Part shown: in pieces, positions 8,372 to 62,528 of the stretch
Numbering within the stretch: the stretch's first letter is position 1
Layout of the letters: every line of letters begins with the position of its first letter
Assembly: GCF_023897065.1 (NCBI RefSeq)
Contig: NZ_JAMHIV010000011.1
Location: 62,001-126,000, forward strand
Direction of reading: 5' to 3'
DNA: 64,000 bases
Source of the DNA: Crossiella sp. SN42
GTDB taxonomy: Bacteria > Actinomycetota > Actinomycetes > Mycobacteriales > Pseudonocardiaceae
The notes under the pieces: generated by a model
Database searches by the model: none
What the model saw: the letters and a program-made list of their open reading frames with translations, nothing else
What the model was told of the DNA's origin: nothing
Made by a program: the position numbers and the translations under genes

Positions 8372-9633
8372 CCGCGCCCAGCACCGCGGAGCAGCCGTGG
8401 CCGGTCCGGACGGTGGCGCGCAAGATCGCGGAGTGGATCGCGCGGCTGGGTTCGGTGTGGGTGGAGGGTGAGGTCACCCAGATCTCCAACCGGCCGGGCA
8501 CCGCGACCGCCTTCATCACCCTGCGCGACCCCTCCGCCAACGTCTCGGTCACCGTGACCTGCGCGACCGCGCTGCTGCGAGGCCTGGAGACGCCGCTCAC
8601 CGAGGGCGCGCGGGTGATCATGCACGGGCGGCCGGTGTTCTACGAGGGCCGCGGCACCATCAGCCTGCGGGTGGACGAGATCCGCGCGGTGGGCATCGGC
8701 GAGCTGCTGGCCCGGATCGAGCGGCTGCGCAGGCTGCTGGCCGCCGAGGGCCTGTTCGAGCCGGCCCGCAAGCGCCGCCCGCCGTTCCTGCCCAACCGGG
8801 TCGGGCTGATCACCGGCCGGGCCTCGGCGGCCGAGCGGGACGTGCTGACCAATGCCAAGCACCGCTGGCCCGCGGTGCACTTCCGGGTGATCAACGTTGC
8901 GGTGCAAGGACATCTGGCCGTGCCGCAGGTGCTGGAAGCGCTTGCGGAGCTGGAAGCCGACCCCGAGGTCGACGTGATCGTGATCGCCCGCGGCGGGGGC
9001 AGCGTGGAGGACCTGCTGCCCTTCTCCGACGAGGCGCTGTGCCGGGCGGTGGCCGCCTGCCGCACCCCGGTGCTCAGCGCGATCGGGCACGAGCCGGACA
9101 CCCCGCTGCTGGACCACGTGGCCGACCTGCGCTGCTCGACGCCGACGGACGCGGGCAAACGGGTGGTTCCGGACGTGGCCGAGGAGACGGCCAGGATCGG
9201 CCAGCTCCGCGACCGGGCCCGCCGGGCACTACACGGATGGGTGGATCGCGAGCACCGGTTGCTGACCCAGTTGTGTTCCCGCCCAGCGCTTTCCGACCCG
9301 TTCGGCCCATTGGAACGCCGGGCGGAGGACGTGCGGGCGCTGCGCGAGCGGGCCCGCCGGGCCACCGTCTCCCGGCTCGGGCACGAACAGAGCGGGTTGG
9401 ACGGTGTCAAAGCACGCTTGACGACCCTGGGACCGGCGGCCACTCTGGCCCGCGGATACGCGGTTGTGCAGCGCGTCGTGGCCGGTGCCCCGGACGGGGT
9501 GCTCCGTTCGGTCGCGGACGCGCCGCCGGGAACGCTGCTGCGGGTCCGAGTCGTTGACGGAGCGGTGCACGCGATCGTGCCCGAAGACACCGGAGCGGTG
9601 AACGGAGGTAGCGGTGGCGTCGCTGGCCCATGA
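8368..9633 (+). CDS. xseA: Exodeoxyribonuclease VII large subunit
   Basis: A 421-residue protein. The N-terminal OB-fold (about residues 10-105) carries the [10 protein letters not shown] motif. The catalytic domain contains [22 protein letters not shown] and [12 protein letters not shown], the signature blocks of the family. A helical C-terminal region ends in RGYAVV. With XseB it degrades single-stranded DNA to oligonucleotides. The GTG start overlaps the previous stop by four bases. The gene ends inside the next coding region, so the whole segment is one tightly packed operon. Confidence 0.96.
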
Positions 9634-42686: not shown

Positions 42687-42860
42687 GCGAAAGAGGCGTG
42701 GCGCGCCAGCGACACGGCGGGCCTTTAACCCCGCGGTGGGGTTGATTTTTTCGCGTCGTGCGTTCGTGACCCCGGCACTCCGAAGCTTGCTTCGCGTGTG
42801 CCGGGGTCACGAACGCACGACATAAGGAGCGAAAAAATCCCGCGCGCGGAGCGCGCCAAT
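42687..42860 (+). repeat. Dispersed hairpin repeat, copy A
   Basis: A 174-bp non-coding element present again, inverted, at 62356-62528. Inside it a perfect 23-bp stem (42756-42778 with 42798-42820) encloses a 19-base loop that itself pairs. An outer pairing (GATTTTTTCGC at 42744 with GCGAAAAAATC at 42829) extends the hairpin. The ends carry GGCGCGCC-like sequences but no clear terminal inverted repeats or target duplication. It lies between gabT and hen1 and can act as a terminator between them. Peptides read through it are not real genes. Confidence 0.85.
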
Positions 42861-42903: not shown

Positions 42904-44292
42904 GTGCTGTTCACCCTGACAACCACCCACCAGCCAGCGACCGACCTCGGCTACTTGCTGCACAAGCATCCAGGCAAGGTGCAGACCTTCGAGGTCGCCG
43001 CGGGGACCGCGCACGTGTTCTACCCACAAGCGGAAGAACATCAGTGCACGGTCGGTCTGCTGCTGGAGCTCGACCCGATCGAGCTGGTGCGGCGGGGACG
43101 GGAGAACACCGCGTTCAGCCTGGGCCGCTACGTCAACGACCGGCCGTACGTGGCCTCCTCGATGCTCGCGGTGGCGCTGGGCAAGGTGTTCCGCACCGCG
43201 CTGGGCGGACGCTGCGAGTCCCACCCCGAACTGGCCGCCACGCCGATCCCACTGGCCATCCACCTGCCCGCGGTGCCCTGCCACGGACCGGCGGACCTGG
43301 TGACGCGGCTGTTCGAGCCGCTGGGCTGGACGGTGGACGCGCGGCCGATCCCGATGACCGGCTGGGGTGACTCGCCGTATGTGGACCTGCGGCTGACCGG
43401 CACGCTGCGGCTGGCCGAGGCGCTCAACCACCTCTACGTGCTGCTGCCGGTGCTGGACAACGCCAAGCACTACTGGGTCTCCGAGGACGAGGTGGAGAAG
43501 CTGCTGCGGGCCGGGGACACCTGGCTGGCCGAGCACCCGGAGCGGGACCTGGTGAGCCGCCGCTACCTGCGGCACCACCGGGGGCTGGTGACCGCCGCGC
43601 TGACCAGGCTGGCCGAGGCCGACGACACCGAGCCCGCGGAGCTGGACAACGCGTTGCAGGAGGCGGTGGTGCCCAGCGAGCCGCTCGCGGTGGCCCGCAG
43701 GCACGCGGTTGTGGCGCTGCTCAAGGAGATCGGCGCGCGGCAGGTGGTCGACCTGGGCTGCGGTGCTGGCGCGCTGCTGCGGGAGTTGTTGCGGGACTTG
43801 CACTTCACCCGGATCCTCGGGGTGGACGTCTCCGCGCGGGCGCTGGCCGATGCCGAGCGCGGGCTCCAGCTGGACCGGATGTCCGAGCACGTCGCGGACC
43901 GGCTCACCCTGCGCCAGTCCGCGCTGACCTATGTGGACGCTGAGCTGCGCGGCTTCGACGCGGCGGTGCTGATGGAGGTCGTCGAGCACGTGGACCCGCC
44001 GCGGCTGCCCGCGCTGGCCCGCGCGGTCTTCGGCGGCGCCACCCCCGGCGCGGTGCTGGTGACCACGCCGAACGTGGAGTACAACGTGCGCTTCCCCGGC
44101 CTGCCCGCCGGGCAGTTCCGGCACCCGGACCACCGCTTCGAGTGGACCCGCGCCGAGTTCCGGGCCTGGGCCGGGGAAGTCGCCCAGCGCTACGGATATG
44201 CCGTGGAGTTCCGGCCGGTCGGACCCGATGACCCCGAAGTCGGACCGCCCACCCAGCTCGCTCTTTTTCGCCGCACGGAGGTCGCCCGATGA
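42904..44292 (+). CDS. hen1: Bacterial Hen1, 3'-terminal RNA ribose 2'-O-methyltransferase
   Basis: A 462-residue protein. The N-terminal half (1-245) is the bacterial Hen1 domain needed to activate Pnkp ligase. The C-terminal methyltransferase has the SAM motif VVDLGCGAGALL (281-292) and the metal-binding EVVEH (Glu358, Glu361, His362) plus FRHPDH (His407, His410). Family enzymes methylate the 2'-OH at the break site before ligation, so a repaired RNA cannot be cut again there. It is the first gene of a four-gene coupled operon; its stop overlaps the pnkp ATG by four bases. Confidence 0.95.
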   Translation: MLFTLTTTHQPATDLGYLLHKHPGKVQTFEVAAGTAHVFYPQAEEHQCTVGLLLELDPIELVRRGRENTAFSLGRYVNDRPYVASSMLAVALGKVFRTALGGRCESHPELAATPIPLAIHLPAVPCHGPADLVTRLFEPLGWTVDARPIPMTGWGDSPYVDLRLTGTLRLAEALNHLYVLLPVLDNAKHYWVSEDEVEKLLRAGDTWLAEHPERDLVSRRYLRHHRGLVTAALTRLAEADDTEPAELDNALQEAVVPSEPLAVARRHAVVALLKEIGARQVVDLGCGAGALLRELLRDLHFTRILGVDVSARALADAERGLQLDRMSEHVADRLTLRQSALTYVDAELRGFDAAVLMEVVEHVDPPRLPALARAVFGGATPGAVLVTTPNVEYNVRFPGLPAGQFRHPDHRFEWTRAEFRAWAGEVAQRYGYAVEFRPVGPDDPEVGPPTQLALFRRTEVAR

Positions 44293-46826
44293 CCGCACTG
44301 TCCATTCCGGACAAGTCGCTGGTGCTGCTCGTCGGCGTCTCCGGCTCCGGCAAGTCCAGCTTCGCCGCCAAGCACTTCAGGCCGACCCAGGTGCTCTCCA
44401 GCGACTTCTTCCGCGGCCTGGTCAGCGATGACGAGAACAACCAGGAGGCCACCGCGGCGGCCTTCGACGCGCTCCAGTACGTGGCGGGCAAACGACTGGC
44501 CGCCGGGCTGCTCACCGTGGTGGACGCGACCAACGTGCAGCAGACCTCGCGCGCCTCGCTGATCGCGCTGGCCAAACAGCACCACGTGCTGCCAGTGGCG
44601 ATCGTGCTGGACGTGCCGGAGTCGGTGTGCGTGCAGCGCAACGCGGCCCGCCAGGACCGCCAGTTCGGCGCGGAGGTGATCGCCCGGCAGAAGTCGCAGC
44701 TGCGCCGCTCGCAGAAACACCTGACACGCGAGGGCCTGCGCAAGGTGCACACCCTGCACGGCCAGGAGGAGATCGACGCGGCCACCATCGTGGTGGAGCC
44801 GCTGATCAACGACCGCACCGGGCTGACCGGGCCGTTCGACGTGATCGGCGATGTGCACGGCTGCCGGGGCGAGCTGGAGTCGCTGCTCACCGAGCTGGGC
44901 TGGGACCTGGAGTGGGAGAACGAGAAAGCGGTCGGCGCCAGCCACCCGGAGGGCCGGACCGCGGTGTTCGTCGGCGACCTGGTCGACCGCGGCCCGGACA
45001 CCCCCGGCGTGCTGCGGCTGGTGATGAACATGGTCGAGGCGGGCACCGCGATCTGCGTGTGCGGCAACCACGAGCAGAAGCTGCACCGGGCGCTGACCGG
45101 CCGCAAGGTCACCGTCTCGCACGGGCTCGCCGAGTCCCTCGACCAGCTGGCCGGGCAGCCCGAGGAGTTCCGGCAGCGGGTGGCGGAGTTCTGCTACGGC
45201 CTGGTCTCGCACTACCTGCTCGACGGCGGCAACCTGGTCATCGCGCACGCCGGGCTGCCGGAACGCTTCCACGGCCGCGCCTCCGGCCGGGTGCGCAGCT
45301 TCGCCCTCTACGGCGACACCACCGGCGAGACCGACGAGTACGGGCTGCCGGTGCGCTACCCGTGGGCCAACGACTACCGCGGCCGGGCCATGGTGCTCTA
45401 CGGGCACACGCCCACGCCCGAGGTCGAGTGGATCAACAACACGATGTGCCTGGACACCGGCGCGGTGTTCGGCAACAAGCTGACCGCGCTGCGCTATCCG
45501 GAGCGCGAGGTGGTCTCGGTGCCCTCGGAGAAGGTCTGGTACGAGCCGACCAAGCCGCTCGTCCCGCCCGCGCCGCCGGAGCGCGAGGCCGGGCTGCTGG
45601 AGCTGGCCGACGTGGCGGGCAAGCGGGTGGTGGAGACCGGCGAGCTGCACGGGCGGGTCACGGTGACCGCCGAGCACGCCGCGGCCGCGCTGGAGGTGAT
45701 GAGCCGGTTCGCGCTGGACCCGCGCTGGCTGCTGTACCTGCCGCCGACCATGGCCCCGGTGAACACCTCGGCCCTGCCGGAGCTGCTGGAGCACCCGGCC
45801 GAGGCCTTCGCCGCCTACCAGGCCGACGGGGTGCGCGAGCTGCTGTGCGAGGAGAAGCACATGGGCTCGCGCGCGGTGCTGCTGGTCTGCCGCGATGAGC
45901 AGACCGCGCTCAAGCGCTTCGGCGTGGCCGGGCCGGGCGTGGTGCACACCCGCACCGGGCGGGCGTTCTTCGCTGACGACCGCGGCGAACAGCTGCTCGC
46001 CCGGGTCAGCGCGGCGGTCACCGCGGCCGGGCTGTGGGCCGAGCTGGACACCGACTGGCTGCTGCTGGACGCCGAGCTGCTGCCGTGGAGCGCCAAGGCA
46101 GGCGGGCTGATCCGCGAGCAGTACGCCGCGGTCGGCGCGGCCGCCACCGCCGCGCTGCCGGTGGCCGCGGACGTGTTGCGGCAGGCCGCCGGACGCGGGC
46201 TGGACGTGGCGGAGCTGTTGGCGCGCACCGAGTCCCGGCTGGCCAACGCCACCGCGTTCGAGGCGGTGCACCAGCGCTACTGCTGGCCGACCGAGGACCT
46301 GGACGGCATCCGGCTGGCCCCGTTCCAGCTGCTCGCCTCGCAGGGCCGCAACCACGCGCGCACCGCGCACGCCTGGCACCTGGCGCAGGCTGACAAGATG
46401 ATCTCGGCGGCACCCGGACTGTTCACCGCCACCCGCACCATCGCGGTGGATACCGAGGACCCGGAGTCGGTGGCCAGGGCCGTCGCGTGGTGGGAGGAGC
46501 TCACCGCGGCCGGGGGCGAGGGCATGGTGGTCAAACCGGCGGCGAACCTGAGCCGGGGGAAGCGAGGACTGGTGCAGCCGGGTTTGAAGGTGCGTGGCCG
46601 GGAGTACCTGCGGCTGATCTACGGACCGGACTACACCGAGCAGGCCAACCTGAAGCGGGTGCGCCAGCGCAAGATCGCCGGCAAGCGGTCGATGGCGCTG
46701 CGCGAGTACGCCATCGGCATGGAGGGCCTGGACCGGCTGGCCGCGGGGGAACCGCTGTGGCGGGTGCACGAGTGCGTGTTCGCGGTGCTCGCGCTGGAGT
46801 CCGAGCCGGTGGACCCGCGGCTGTGA
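44289..46826 (+). CDS. pnkp: Polynucleotide kinase-phosphatase-ligase Pnkp
   Basis: An 845-residue three-domain RNA repair enzyme. The N-terminal kinase has P-loop GVSGSGKSS with Lys22/Ser23. The central calcineurin-type phosphatase has GDVHGC (Asp188, His190), GDLVDRG (Asp230), GNHE (Asn260, His261), and His320 and His372. The C-terminal adenylyltransferase has CEEKHMGSR with Lys523 as the adenylated residue. It heals 5'-OH and 2',3'-cyclic phosphate ends and, with Hen1, seals them. Length is normal for the family. Its stop overlaps the next start by four bases. Confidence 0.96.
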   Translation: MTALSIPDKSLVLLVGVSGSGKSSFAAKHFRPTQVLSSDFFRGLVSDDENNQEATAAAFDALQYVAGKRLAAGLLTVVDATNVQQTSRASLIALAKQHHVLPVAIVLDVPESVCVQRNAARQDRQFGAEVIARQKSQLRRSQKHLTREGLRKVHTLHGQEEIDAATIVVEPLINDRTGLTGPFDVIGDVHGCRGELESLLTELGWDLEWENEKAVGASHPEGRTAVFVGDLVDRGPDTPGVLRLVMNMVEAGTAICVCGNHEQKLHRALTGRKVTVSHGLAESLDQLAGQPEEFRQRVAEFCYGLVSHYLLDGGNLVIAHAGLPERFHGRASGRVRSFALYGDTTGETDEYGLPVRYPWANDYRGRAMVLYGHTPTPEVEWINNTMCLDTGAVFGNKLTALRYPEREVVSVPSEKVWYEPTKPLVPPAPPEREAGLLELADVAGKRVVETGELHGRVTVTAEHAAAALEVMSRFALDPRWLLYLPPTMAPVNTSALPELLEHPAEAFAAYQADGVRELLCEEKHMGSRAVLLVCRDEQTALKRFGVAGPGVVHTRTGRAFFADDRGEQLLARVSAAVTAAGLWAELDTDWLLLDAELLPWSAKAGGLIREQYAAVGAAATAALPVAADVLRQAAGRGLDVAELLARTESRLANATAFEAVHQRYCWPTEDLDGIRLAPFQLLASQGRNHARTAHAWHLAQADKMISAAPGLFTATRTIAVDTEDPESVARAVAWWEELTAAGGEGMVVKPAANLSRGKRGLVQPGLKVRGREYLRLIYGPDYTEQANLKRVRQRKIAGKRSMALREYAIGMEGLDRLAAGEPLWRVHECVFAVLALESEPVDPRL

Positions 46827-47515
46827 TCGTCCTGGACCTGGTGCGGGAGCACACGATTCTGTCCACGGTGGTCGGCTCGCGGGCCTACGGGCTGGCCGGG
46901 CCGGACTCCGACCTGGACCGGCGCGGGGTCTACGTCGCGCCGACCGAGCTGTTCTGGGGCCTGATGAAGCCGCCGGACAGCGTGGAGGGCCCGGAGCCGG
47001 AGCGGCTGAGCTGGGAGGTCGAGCACTTCTGCCTGCTCGCGCTCAAGGCCAACCCGACCGTGCTGGACGTGCTGGCCTCCGGGCAGGTCGAGCGGTGCGG
47101 CACGGCGGGCGCGGAGCTGCGCGCGCTGCTGCCCGCGTTCCTGTCGCTGCGCGCGGTGAAGACCTTCCGCAAGGCCACCGAGCAGCAGTTCCTCCGCGCC
47201 CAGGCCTCGATGGCCGAGGGCGGGGACCCGAAGTGGAAGCAGATCATGCACGGGCTGCGGCTGTTGCTGGTCTGCGAGCACCTGGTGCGCACCGGCGAGC
47301 TGAGCATCGACGCCGCGCCGTTCCGGGACGAGCTGCTGGAGATCAAGTCCGGGGCCAGGGACTGGGAGTCGGTGCGCACCAGGGTGATCGGGGCGCAGGC
47401 CGACATCGAGCTGGCCGAGGCGAACAGCCCGCTGCCGCCGATGCCGGATCGGGCCGCGGTGGAACGCTGGCTGGTCTCGGTGCGTCGACGGTCCGTGGAA
47501 GGAGAGTTGACGTGA
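46823..47515 (+). CDS. RlaP-like nucleotidyltransferase 1 (RNA repair operon)
   Basis: A 230-residue polymerase-beta-fold nucleotidyltransferase. The signature is GSRAYGLAGPDSDLDRRGVYV, with the paired aspartates that bind metal, then a helical domain with KTFRKATEQQFLRAQ. Such proteins, named RlaP in comparative genomics, are found with RNA ligases and are predicted to extend or mend RNA 3' ends before sealing. That activity is a prediction, not shown here. The GTG start overlaps the pnkp stop and its own stop overlaps the next GTG. Confidence 0.83.
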   Translation: MIVLDLVREHTILSTVVGSRAYGLAGPDSDLDRRGVYVAPTELFWGLMKPPDSVEGPEPERLSWEVEHFCLLALKANPTVLDVLASGQVERCGTAGAELRALLPAFLSLRAVKTFRKATEQQFLRAQASMAEGGDPKWKQIMHGLRLLLVCEHLVRTGELSIDAAPFRDELLEIKSGARDWESVRTRVIGAQADIELAEANSPLPPMPDRAAVERWLVSVRRRSVEGELT

Positions 47516-48279
47516 GCTTGCAAGACCTGGACACCGCCGTGCTGGCAGGTGTCGTCGCCGAACAGGACCGGCCGCTGGTGTTCGCCACCGTCTCCGGCGC
47601 GCACCTCTACGGCTTCCCGTCCCAGGACTCCGACGTCGACCTGCGCGGGGTGCACCTGCTGGCCACCAGCGAGCTGGCCGGGCTGCGCTACGGGCCGGAG
47701 ACGGTGGAGCGGATCTGGCAGCACGAGGGGACCGAGCTGGACCTGGTCACCCACGACATCGCCAAGTTCGCCCGGCTGCTGCTGCGCCCCAACGGCTACG
47801 TCGCCGAGCAGCTGCTCTCGCCGCTGGTGGTGCACACCACACAGGCGCACCAAGAGCTGATCGCGCTCGCGCCGGGCTTCCTGACCAGCAGGCACGCCCA
47901 CCACTACCGCGGTTTCGCCAAGACCCAGTGGCGGCTGTTCGAGCGCAACGGCGAGCTGAAACCGCTGCTCTACACCTTCCGCGCGCTGCTGAGCGGGGTG
48001 CACCTGATGCGCACCGGGTCGGTGCTGGCGCACCTGCCCACGCTGATCGAGGAGCAGGGCGGCCCGGCCTACCTGAAGGAGCTGATCGCGGCCAAGGTCG
48101 AGGGCGAGCACCGGCCGCTGGACTCGGTGCCGGGCGCGCCGGACGCGGAGACGCTGGCCGCGGACCTGCTCAGCTGGCTGGAGTGGCTGGACGTGGCGGA
48201 GAACGGCTCGGCGCTGCCGCAGGAACCCTCGGTGCACGAGGAGATGCACCAGCTGGTGCTGCGGCTGCGGCCTGCCTAG
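47512..48279 (+). CDS. RlaP-like nucleotidyltransferase 2 (RNA repair operon)
   Basis: A 255-residue paralog of the preceding protein. The signature here is SGAHLYGFPSQDSDVDLRGVHL. The glycine/serine lead-in is GA instead of GSRA, but the Asp pair is intact. The helical part contains HHYRGFAKTQWRLFE and KPLLYTFRALLSGVHLMRTG. Sequence similarity to copy 1 is low outside the catalytic motif, so this is an old divergence rather than a recent duplication. It is the last gene of the operon; its stop shares the bases CTAG with the stop of the convergent small membrane gene. Confidence 0.83.
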   Translation: MSLQDLDTAVLAGVVAEQDRPLVFATVSGAHLYGFPSQDSDVDLRGVHLLATSELAGLRYGPETVERIWQHEGTELDLVTHDIAKFARLLLRPNGYVAEQLLSPLVVHTTQAHQELIALAPGFLTSRHAHHYRGFAKTQWRLFERNGELKPLLYTFRALLSGVHLMRTGSVLAHLPTLIEEQGGPAYLKELIAAKVEGEHRPLDSVPGAPDAETLAADLLSWLEWLDVAENGSALPQEPSVHEEMHQLVLRLRPA

Positions 48280-48599
48280 GAAGCGCCCGAGGTCGCCTCG
48301 GGTTTCTTGCTCTCCGGCCGCGCCGGCTCGGCGGACTCCGCCGCCGGGTCCGGTGTGGCCGGTGTCTCCTCGGCCGCCGGGGCGTCCTTGTCGAAGCTCT
48401 GCGGCAGCTTGCGTAGGTGCTTGTTCATCGAGCGCACCAGGAAGCCCACCGCGATGAAGAACAGGATCAGCAGGACCAGCCCGACCGGGCTGGACTTGCC
48501 GAAGTCCTCGCCGCGGCCGCCGGGCTCTTCCGGCTTCTTCGGCTGGGCCACCACGAGAGCGGTCGTCTCGTGGTGGCCAACCGTGTCGAGCAAAGTCAT
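48276..48599 (-). CDS. Small membrane protein downstream of mca
   Basis: A 107-residue protein with one strong transmembrane segment ([17 protein letters not shown], about residues 39-56). A Lys/Arg-rich stretch and an acidic Pro/Ala/Glu-rich tail follow. It corresponds by position to the small gene after mca in mycobacteria. Its ATG overlaps the mca stop by four bases, so it is translated with Mca. The function is unknown; it may tether or assist a detoxification partner at the membrane. Confidence 0.75.
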
Positions 48600-49477
48600 G
48601 TACGCACCTGGGTCAGGACGCCGGCGAACAGGTCGTCCTCCGGCAACGTGGTGTCGACCAGCGAGCGGGCCAACTCGTACTCCTCGGTGGGCCACACCTC
48701 CCGCTGGAGGTCCAGGGGAACCGCGAACCACCTGCTGGTCGGGTCGATCTGGGTGGCGTGCGCCTTCAGCGCCTCGTCCCGGATCTCAAAGTACTCCCCG
48801 CACTCCACCTGGGTCGTCACCCGCTCCATCACATCGGGCTTGTCGTTGTCCCAGTGCTTGAGCCACTCCTCGTACGGCGACTCCAGCCCGCGCGCGAGCA
48901 GGGTGTCGTGGAAGGTCAGCAGCTTCTTCCGGGAGAAGCCGTGCGAGTAGTACAGCTTCAGCGGCTGCCAGGGCTCACCGGCCTCCGGGAAGCGGTCCGG
49001 GTCGCCCGCGGCCTCGAACGCGGCCACCGAGACCTCGTGGCAGCGGATGTGGTCCGGGTGCGGGTAGCCGCCGTTCTCGTCGTAGGTGATCATCACGTGC
49101 GGCCGGAACTCGCGCACGATCTTGACCAGCTCCGCGGTGGACTCCTCCAGCGGCACCAGGGCGAAGCAGCCCTCGGGCAGCGGCGGCAGCGGGTCACCCT
49201 CCGGCAGGCCGGAGTCGACGTAGGGCAGCCAGCGGTGCTGGACCTTGAGGATCTCCGCGGCCCGTGCCATCTCCTCGCGGCGCACCGCGGCGAGGTTGTT
49301 CACCACTTCCGGCCGGTCCATCGCCGGGTTCAGGATGCTGCCACGTTCGCCCCCGGTGCAGGTCACGACCATGACCTCATGCCCGTCGGCCACCAGTTTC
49401 GCGGTGGTGGCGGCACCCTTGCTCGACTCGTCGTCGGGGTGGGCGTGCACCGTCATCAGGCGCAGCTTCTCTGCCAT
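48596..49477 (-). CDS. mca: Mycothiol S-conjugate amidase
   Basis: A 293-residue LmbE-family zinc hydrolase. The zinc motif AHPDDE has His13 and Asp16, and the third ligand is in YPHPDH. Mca cleaves mycothiol conjugates of toxins to a mercapturic acid for export, so the organism makes mycothiol. The related deacetylase MshB is less likely because length, the [15 protein letters not shown] block and the linked small membrane gene fit Mca. The ATG follows AGGA by 8 bases; an upstream extension is not family-like. Confidence 0.93.
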
Positions 49478-49604
49478 GGATGTTCCTGGTCCTCTCGTCA
49501 GCCCGGCGCGACCCCCAGTCGGCGCGGTCATGGATACTCAACGCGGGCGTTGCCGCCCATTGTTCCCTGCGGGTACGACAAAGACGGCCGGGAGGTCCGC
49601 GTCG

Positions 49605-50146: not shown

Positions 50147-50214
50147 CCGTTTCCTGGTGCAGCCTGCCAGGAGCGACCAGCCCACAGCCGTGGGCCTGGA
50201 GGAGACGAGGAGTG

Positions 50215-50706
50215 GTGACCGTGGCCGAGACCGTGACCTGGCTGACCCAGGATGCTTTCGACCGGCTCAAGCACGAGTTGGACGATCTCATTGCCAACCG
50301 CCCGGTCATCGCCGCGGAGATCAACGCCCGCCGTGAGGAGGGCGACCTCCGGGAGAACGGTGGCTACCACGCCGCCCGCGAGGAACAGGGCAAGCAGGAG
50401 GGGCGGATCCGTCAGCTCCAGGAGCTGTTGCGCCAGGCCAAGGTGGGCGAGGCGCCCACCGAGTCGGGCATCGCCCAGCCGGGCATGGTGGTCACCATCC
50501 GCTACGACGGCGATGACGAGAAGGAGACCTTCCTGCTCGCCACCCGCGAGGAGGGCTCGCACGGGGACCTCGAGGTCTACTCGCCGAGCTCCCCGCTGGG
50601 CGCGGCGCTGCTGGAGGCCAAGGTCGGCGAGACCCGTGAGTACGCCACGCCCAACGGCCGCACCATGAAGGTCACCCTGCTGGACGCGGTGCCGTACCAG
50701 AGCTGA
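50215..50706 (+). CDS. greA: Transcription elongation factor GreA
   Basis: About 163 residues. The N-terminal coiled coil includes the tip region [19 protein letters not shown], whose acidic residues reach the RNA polymerase active site to stimulate RNA cleavage. The C-terminal FKBP-like domain ends in [11 protein letters not shown]. It has the GreA-type sequence of actinobacteria. GTG codons at 50212, 50215 and 50221 are all possible starts, served by GGAGGAG (50198-50204) and AGGAG (50208-50212). It is followed by a 17-bp stem-loop. Confidence 0.95.
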
Positions 50707-62355: not shown

Positions 62356-62528
62356 ATTGGCGCGCTCCGCGCGCGGGATTTTTTCGCTCCTGAGTCGCAC
62401 GTTCGTGACCCCGGCACACGCGAAGCAAGCTTCGGAGTGTCGGGGTCACGAACGCCTGACGCGAAAAAATCAACCCCACCGCGGAGTCAAGAGCCCGGCG
62501 TGTCGCTGGCGCGCCACGCCTCTTTCGC
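62356..62528 (-). repeat. Dispersed hairpin repeat, copy B
   Basis: This is the inverted copy of the element at 42687-42860, differing at about a dozen positions by eye. The internal stem survives but with mismatches near its base. It starts 5 bases after the fadA stop. As in copy A, the ends are GCGAAAG and GCGCCAAT, with no visible target duplication. Confidence 0.85.

Follow-up and report, generated by a model that had tools for sequence, protein, structure and literature searches.

The operon hen1-pnkp-NT1-NT2 of Crossiella sp. SN42, which lies in a stretch of 64,000 nucleotides of contig NZ_JAMHIV010000011.1 (positions 62,001 to 126,000; hereafter the window, whose own numbering is used throughout), encodes the RNA repair proteins Hen1 and Pnkp together with two nucleotidyltransferases of the RlaP family, NT1 and NT2. 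We hold it moderately probable that this operon mends RNA breaks, with Hen1 and Pnkp healing, 2′-O-methylating and sealing the cut ends and the NT pair restoring lost nucleotides, and that it is an old resident of the locus marked by mca and greA. NT1 and NT2 are separate lineages that travel together as an old matched pair, and co-occurrence and repeated linkage with Hen1-Pnkp suggest that the pair is tied to this repair system.

Gene layout and catalytic motifs

The first-pass annotation of this DNA had assigned the four forward-strand genes to Hen1, Pnkp and two RlaP-like nucleotidyltransferases, overlapping stop to start at every junction. Both claims hold: the coordinates agree (Table 1), the overlaps are exactly four bases at all three junctions, and every protein scores above the cut-offs of its family. 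Hen1 matched TIGR04074 (bacter_Hen1) with 674.7 bits (cut-off 340) over residues 2–457 and Pfam Hen1_L (PF12623) at 3e-110, also above the cut-off; the N-terminal Hen1_L region and the methyltransferase domain are both present. Pnkp matched TIGR04075 (bacter_Pnkp) with 1378.1 bits (cut-off 750) and has PF13671, PF00149 and PF16542 (PNKP_ligase, 2e-179) in order in one chain. Against RlaP (PF10127, gathering cut-off 23), NT1 scored 98.0 bits (9e-28) and NT2 154.2 bits (6e-45). Sequence relatives in the PDB are 4dqz and 3jwh for Hen1 and 4gp6, 4j6o and 4drf for Pnkp, and a PDB sequence search with the NT1 and NT2 profiles gave no credible solved structure. In relatives of the operon, candidate starts give the same 4-base overlaps at many junctions and 1-base overlaps or short gaps elsewhere. 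The gene overlaps suggest that the four proteins are made together.

We picked 18 motif positions of the Pnkp kinase, metallophosphatase and ligase domains, which we take to be catalytic, and found all 18 identical in all 60 aligned proteins, the window genome's own copy included. Hen1 carries EVVEH (residues 358–362) and RHPDHRFEW. ExxEH...H, presumably the metal-binding motif of terminal 2′-O-methyltransferases, was kept as ExxEH in 56 of 57 Hen1 matches, the exception (L103) being a match of 237 residues, and RHxDHRFEW in 54 of them; the 57 include the window's own copy and count four genomes twice. The nucleotidyltransferases were read against the Pol-beta motif, which we assume to be G[GS]...DxD plus a third acid. 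G18, S19, S29, D30 and D32 of NT1 were invariant in all 34 aligned rows, as was D43 of NT2, with G29, A30, S40 and D41 kept in at least 90% (row L214 is truncated at the motif). The third acid, placed by alignment and not by structure, is probably E60 in NT1 and D77 in NT2. The catalytic motifs of Hen1 and of the Pnkp kinase, phosphatase and ligase are thus intact, as had been claimed, and conserved across the aligned relatives; together with family membership they support the earlier proposal of RNA repair by Hen1 and Pnkp.

Table 1. Features of the window discussed in the text (window coordinates)
Feature	Position	Strand	Remarks
hen1	42904..44292	+	3′-terminal RNA ribose 2′-O-methyltransferase; GTG start, 462 aa; N-terminal Hen1_L region = residues 1–237
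pnkp	44289..46826	+	ATG start, 845 aa; kinase ~1–170, metallophosphatase ~173–430, ligase 466–840
NT1	46823..47515	+	RlaP-family Pol-beta nucleotidyltransferase; GTG start, 230 aa; GSRAYGL...SDLD motif
NT2	47512..48279	+	RlaP-family nucleotidyltransferase of separate lineage; GTG start, 255 aa; SGAHLYG...SDVD motif
Overlap ATGA, 4 bases	44289..44292	+	hen1 stop / pnkp start
Overlap GTGA, 4 bases	46823..46826	+	pnkp stop / NT1 start
Overlap GTGA, 4 bases	47512..47515	+	NT1 stop / NT2 start
mca-like amidase (PIG-L family)	48596..49531	-	PF02585; conserved neighbour marking the locus
greA	50212..50706	+	PF03449, PF01272; conserved neighbour, gene order in relatives
Dispersed hairpin repeat	42687..42860		between gabT and hen1; perfect 24-bp arms 42755–42778 / 42798–42821; outside the system

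NT1 and NT2 as a matched pair

A scan of genome contigs with an NT2 profile found at least 550 relatives, of which the best 80 were kept. All 80 loci are actinobacterial, and motif counts from them are biased because the search patterns contain the NT2 motif. In 77 of the 80 loci NT1 accompanies NT2 at a distance of no more than 233 bases; it was not found in the other three (L172, L203 and L227). The two genes share a strand in 15 loci (Lentzea, Kutzneria, Plantactinospora and Kribbella) and converge in 62, all of them from Streptomyces (65 loci). The four-gene order at mca recurs in 10 of 11 Lentzea loci (the ligase domain of L174 was matched in two pieces) and in both Kutzneria loci. A second linkage occurs in another family, g151 (two genomes, L233 and L234), where hen1, pnkp, a phosphomannomutase-like and a phosphotransferase-like gene, NT1 and NT2 follow within about 9–11 kb; NT1 lies about 3 kb from pnkp, and NT1 and NT2 overlap by 4 bases in L233. 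At the NT loci of Streptomyces, Plantactinospora and Kribbella, the fetched flanks contained neither hen1 nor pnkp.

In a RlaP tree of 126 rows, built by a quick method and with long branches flagged, NT1 (53 rows) and NT2 (51 rows) were each set off by a branch, with support of 98 and 100, respectively. The remaining rows, 20 single-copy RlaPs of the family and two from viral contigs, lie apart from both.

The Streptomyces loci have features of their own. The convergent NT1 and NT2 frames overlap tail to tail by at least 60 bases in 45 of 62 loci, which is unusual for two conserved genes (L161–L230, around 8650–8760). An ADP-ribosylglycohydrolase gene stands directly upstream of NT2 in L162 (6960–7994); among the 67 loci compared, 57 besides L162 carry a relative of this gene, and a Nudix/NrtR-like gene precedes it in L179. 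Chorismate mutase and prephenate dehydrogenase genes lie beyond NT1. RNA-end repair may be linked with the removal of ADP-ribose.

Co-occurrence of the pair with Pnkp

Pnkp exceeded the cut-off in 75 of 79 genomes with NT2 loci (40/41 and 35/38 in two batches; the tally over the 80 loci covers 79 genomes, L165 being left out). In a sample of the class comprising 394 genomes, with a Pnkp threshold of E ≤ 1e-100, NT2 was present in 28 genomes, and Pnkp in 27 of these 28 as against 97 of the 366 others (Fisher p = 7e-14). Among 169 Streptomyces genomes, where partial NT2 and partial Pnkp copies were scored as present, NT2 was found in 72 of 153 Pnkp-positive and 1 of 16 Pnkp-negative genomes (p = 0.0012); for genomes up to 8.3 Mb, the corresponding numbers were 30/66 and 1/16 (p = 0.0035). 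In the sampled family of the window genome, Pnkp was present in 39 of 43 genomes with any RlaP, as compared with 34 of 107 without. A test paired on an Mca-GreA tree of 84 genomes (any RlaP versus Pnkp), in which 11 independent pairs differ in RlaP, points the same way, with too little power. The genome of L087, which has a kinase-phosphatase gene with NT1-NT2, carries hen1-pnkp at another place (L245); the gene set of L087 fits a nucleotidyltransferase step after end healing.

Several observations weigh against a firm tie of the pair to Hen1-Pnkp and against its assumed function. The co-occurrence tests other than the tree-paired one assume independent genomes, an assumption that does not hold, and the tree-paired test itself was not significant (on average, Pnkp followed RlaP in 3.2 pairs, ran against it in 0.2 and did not differ in 7.6; median p = 0.25). 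Four of the 79 genomes lack a full Pnkp: L163, L172 and L178 have only C-terminal Pnkp pieces, and L153 (Lentzea sp. NBRC 102530) has at mca a phosphatase-only gene, NT1 and NT2, with neither hen1 nor ligase. The case of L153 shows that the pair can persist once the ligase is gone and so argues against a strict dependence. The NT pair also occurs without full Pnkp in genome G351 (locus L235), with both being present in G206, a member of the same genus, and NT2 occurs in one Pnkp-negative Streptomyces genome (G677, a draft of 1420 contigs). Conversely, the 97 class-sample genomes with Pnkp and no NT2 indicate that Pnkp manages without the pair. Because the Streptomyces pair is far from hen1-pnkp, with NT2 after the ADP-ribosylglycohydrolase gene, the first duty of the pair may be elsewhere. 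The pairing is not strict either: NT1 and NT2 are 1.8–2.4 kb apart in L234 (1.8 kb) and L242, and NT1 occurs without NT2 in L081 and L090. Finally, NT2 has alanine at the second G[GS] position (SGAHLYG), where NT1 has GSxAxGL.

Possible functions of the nucleotidyltransferase pair

The four proteins could act on a broken RNA as follows. Pnkp would phosphorylate the 5′-OH end and strip the 2′,3′-phosphate. NT1 and NT2 would act jointly as a template-independent nucleotidyltransferase, probably heteromeric, and add back the one or few nucleotides lost at the healed 3′ end before methylation and sealing. Hen1 would 2′-O-methylate the freed 3′ end and activate the ligase domain of Pnkp, and Pnkp would seal the break. 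The Hen1 and Pnkp steps most likely apply, as they follow from family membership and published family work; in the excerpts of PMC4411300, Hen1-Pnkp complexes of this kind heal, methylate and seal cut tRNA. In the accessible parts of the respective papers, the function of RlaP is given as prediction only: it would restore nucleotides next to RNA ligases according to PMC7824862, and work for several repair systems according to PMC6514570. We infer nucleotide restoration by NT1-NT2, in line with this prediction for RlaP in general, and formation of the heteromer.

Structure prediction gave a good model of NT1. Its AlphaFold2 (AF2) model had a mean predicted local distance difference test score (pLDDT) of 91.9, and Foldseek returned only three PDB matches at E ≤ 0.001, all of them chains of HalB (9dbj, 9dbh), from the phage-defence system Hailong. 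The best, 9dbj, is remote (E = 6.3e-4, probability 1.0, template modelling score (TM) 0.46, about 15% identity), as are the matches that follow, kanamycin nucleotidyltransferase (E = 2.4e-3) and then streptomycin nucleotidyltransferase. The result supports NT1 as a Pol-beta-type nucleotidyltransferase and does not choose between RNA-end refilling and signal making. The NT2 model gave no match at E ≤ 0.001, a search of little weight because the model is poor over the active-site part, with residues 1–58 below pLDDT 50.

One tentative and rather unlikely elaboration is that NT1-NT2 forms a polymerase of two subunits, the active site of one being standard and that of the other altered; it would depend on Pnkp for its maintenance, read the healed RNA end and either refill this end to a set length or convert it into a signal. 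If so, Actinobacteria would mend RNA with lost nucleotides and not clean cuts alone.

We also regard as unlikely that Hen1-Pnkp performs the repair while the pair, instead of restoring nucleotides, marks RNA ends for decay or quality control by adding tags or non-templated tails. Such a role would accord with the ability of the pair to stand apart from the ligase and with the remote resemblance of the NT1 model to nucleotidyltransferases of various duties. However, NT2 is nested in its co-occurrence with ligase-bearing Pnkp, and a step that feeds the ligase fits this better than decay does.

It is improbable that the pair is a signal synthase of the Hailong or Clover type, which would report RNA breaks and be joined to the repair genes in transcription only. 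HalB chains are the sole NT1 matches within the Foldseek threshold, and the accessible text of PMC12265719 counts the nucleotidyltransferases of Hailong and Clover among immune enzymes; yet the TM below 0.5, the 15% identity and the kanamycin enzyme as the next match argue against this reading, as does, for what a poor model is worth, the empty NT2 search. Moreover, no effector gene was seen to recur among the identified neighbours of the pair in the loci examined.

That the four-gene linkage is a chance of neighbourhood, with two unrelated modules sharing an operon at the mca locus, seems to us quite improbable as well. The pair and hen1-pnkp do lie at separate loci in the examined Streptomyces, Kribbella and Plantactinospora genomes and also in G008 and G032, and NT pairs exist in genomes without Pnkp. 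Chance, however, would account poorly for the second linkage in g151 and for co-occurrence where linkage is absent. Nucleotide restoration within Hen1-Pnkp repair is the function of the pair that we prefer.

The operon at the mca-greA locus

The window genome (9.7 Mb) belongs to a family, Pseudonocardiaceae, that includes Lentzea and Kutzneria. Mca matched in all 150 sampled genomes of this family and Pnkp exceeded the cut-off in 73. In 45 of these 73 genomes, from 12 genera, Pnkp and mca shared a contig and were no more than 12 kb apart; this was not so in the other 28. The neighbours in the fetched regions are constant: a small membrane gene, mca, a DUF4307 gene and greA. Mapped onto a 60-row Pnkp tree, the label 'beside mca' required 7 changes, as compared with a shuffled mean of 18. 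The G+C content at 42–48 kb is 0.718–0.722, within a whole-window range of 0.664–0.768. Neither odd composition nor absence from the same site in relatives, the marks of an island, characterizes the operon. The linkage to mca in 12 genera, the clustering on the tree and the ordinary G+C content speak for a module that has long resided at the mca-greA locus in the sampled family and was lost or moved many times, and against a fresh island.

The 80 regions fetched for this comparison were chosen by hand to cover genera and cases, so that proportions among them mean nothing. The full hen1-pnkp-NT1-NT2 set was present in 15, including the window genome (in L086 the phosphatase domain was matched partly), hen1-pnkp with NT1 alone in one (L081), and hen1-pnkp without NT genes in 21, two of them inverted (L097 and L098 have the inverted block) and three with an extra kinase-phosphatase gene. 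Seven regions had a kinase-phosphatase without ligase, six a phosphatase alone, one a kinase-phosphatase with NT1-NT2 (L087), one NT1 alone (L090) and one a stand-alone NT pair in a region without mca (L088). In L124, a draft of 300 contigs, the locus retains no more than pieces of Hen1 and of the ligase domain, and 26 regions had no part of the operon.

Several genera carry a ligase-less Pnkp-like protein, or a phosphatase alone, at the mca locus (L111–L123). Some genomes with such a gene at mca have a full Pnkp elsewhere, and in L093, L109 and L110 a ligase-less or phosphatase-only gene and a full Pnkp adjoin. Decay or a second function of these genes is possible.

The first-pass annotation had taken the operon for a module acquired inside a conserved core block, and this part of it is not supported. 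Its gene-order argument is removed only in part: Pnkp keeps these neighbours in many relatives, though not in every one. The argument for activity is untouched, as the catalytic residues are unchanged in homologues. Patchy presence (Pnkp in about half of the family genomes, regions with no part of the operon, and the inversions) is what a recently acquired defence island would predict, a reading that we consider very improbable in view of the same place in 12 genera, the fragments left in place in L124, the clustered tree label and the ordinary G+C content.

A role of the operon in defence or self-protection is plausible. PADLOC found no complete anti-phage system in the window, only single-domain matches to mad1-3: the mad2 match is to the methyltransferase domain of Hen1 (2.6e-12), and those to mad1 and mad3 are at 0.007–0.008. 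Carriage by mobile elements was considered and rejected: 80% of Pnkp was covered in none of the 64 matching phage records and in 16 of the 284 matching plasmid records. Relatives of NT1 in viral contigs amount to two loci at 34% identity.

Hairpin repeat upstream of hen1

The hairpin repeat between gabT and hen1 is about 174 bases long and folds strongly (z = −8.8). A second copy lies in the window at 62356–62528, and the genome has 12 copies, this one included, with at least 84% identity over at least 113 of the first 121 bases. No copy was found at this place in a same-species genome or in three congeners, and the window gave no Rfam match at gathering thresholds. Given its dispersal and its absence here from these four genomes, we rejected it as an operon-specific RNA regulator. 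In the same-species genome, gabT and hen1 are only about 55 bases apart if the gabT end is identical. The repeat may separate operon transcription from gabT in the window strain.

Comparison with known systems

The natural substrates of Hen1-Pnkp are stated as unknown in the excerpts of PMC4411300. If the NT pair is tied to Hen1-Pnkp across Actinobacteria, nucleotide loss is probably part of the natural damage; this would narrow the search for the nuclease and offer an in vitro test with defined gapped RNAs.

The operon resembles the bacterial Pnkp-Hen1 RNA repair system in having both proteins at full length, with all domains and checked motifs, in one operon, and hen1 and pnkp are always in one operon according to the same excerpts (PMC4411300). 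It differs in coupling two extra RlaP nucleotidyltransferase genes to them. The Pnkp1-Rnl-Hen1 complex of Capnocytophaga provides an equal set of repair activities; there, however, the ligase is a protein of its own beside the kinase-phosphatase, whose phosphatase belongs to another superfamily, and a nucleotidyltransferase subunit is not mentioned in the text available (all from excerpts of PMC4411300). NT1 and NT2 share with RlaP (PF10127) the above-cut-off match and the role predicted beside RNA ligases (PMC7824862 and PMC6514570, as far as accessible), whereas here two distinct lineages are kept as a pair beside Pnkp-Hen1, and NT2 has GA instead of GS. The Hailong HalB and the kanamycin and streptomycin nucleotidyltransferases are the nearest folds to the NT1 model, yet distant ones. 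A general 'syntax' that combines a ligase, a nucleotidyltransferase, end-modifying enzymes and a methylase was reportedly described by Burroughs and Aravind in 2016, and this operon would obey it. No such pair of RlaPs tied to Pnkp was found in the literature searched, whose reach did not extend to that work, the cited source for RlaP. Hen1-Pnkp and RlaP are thus already known; what seems new here is the pairing of separate NT1 and NT2 lineages and its apparent tie to Pnkp.

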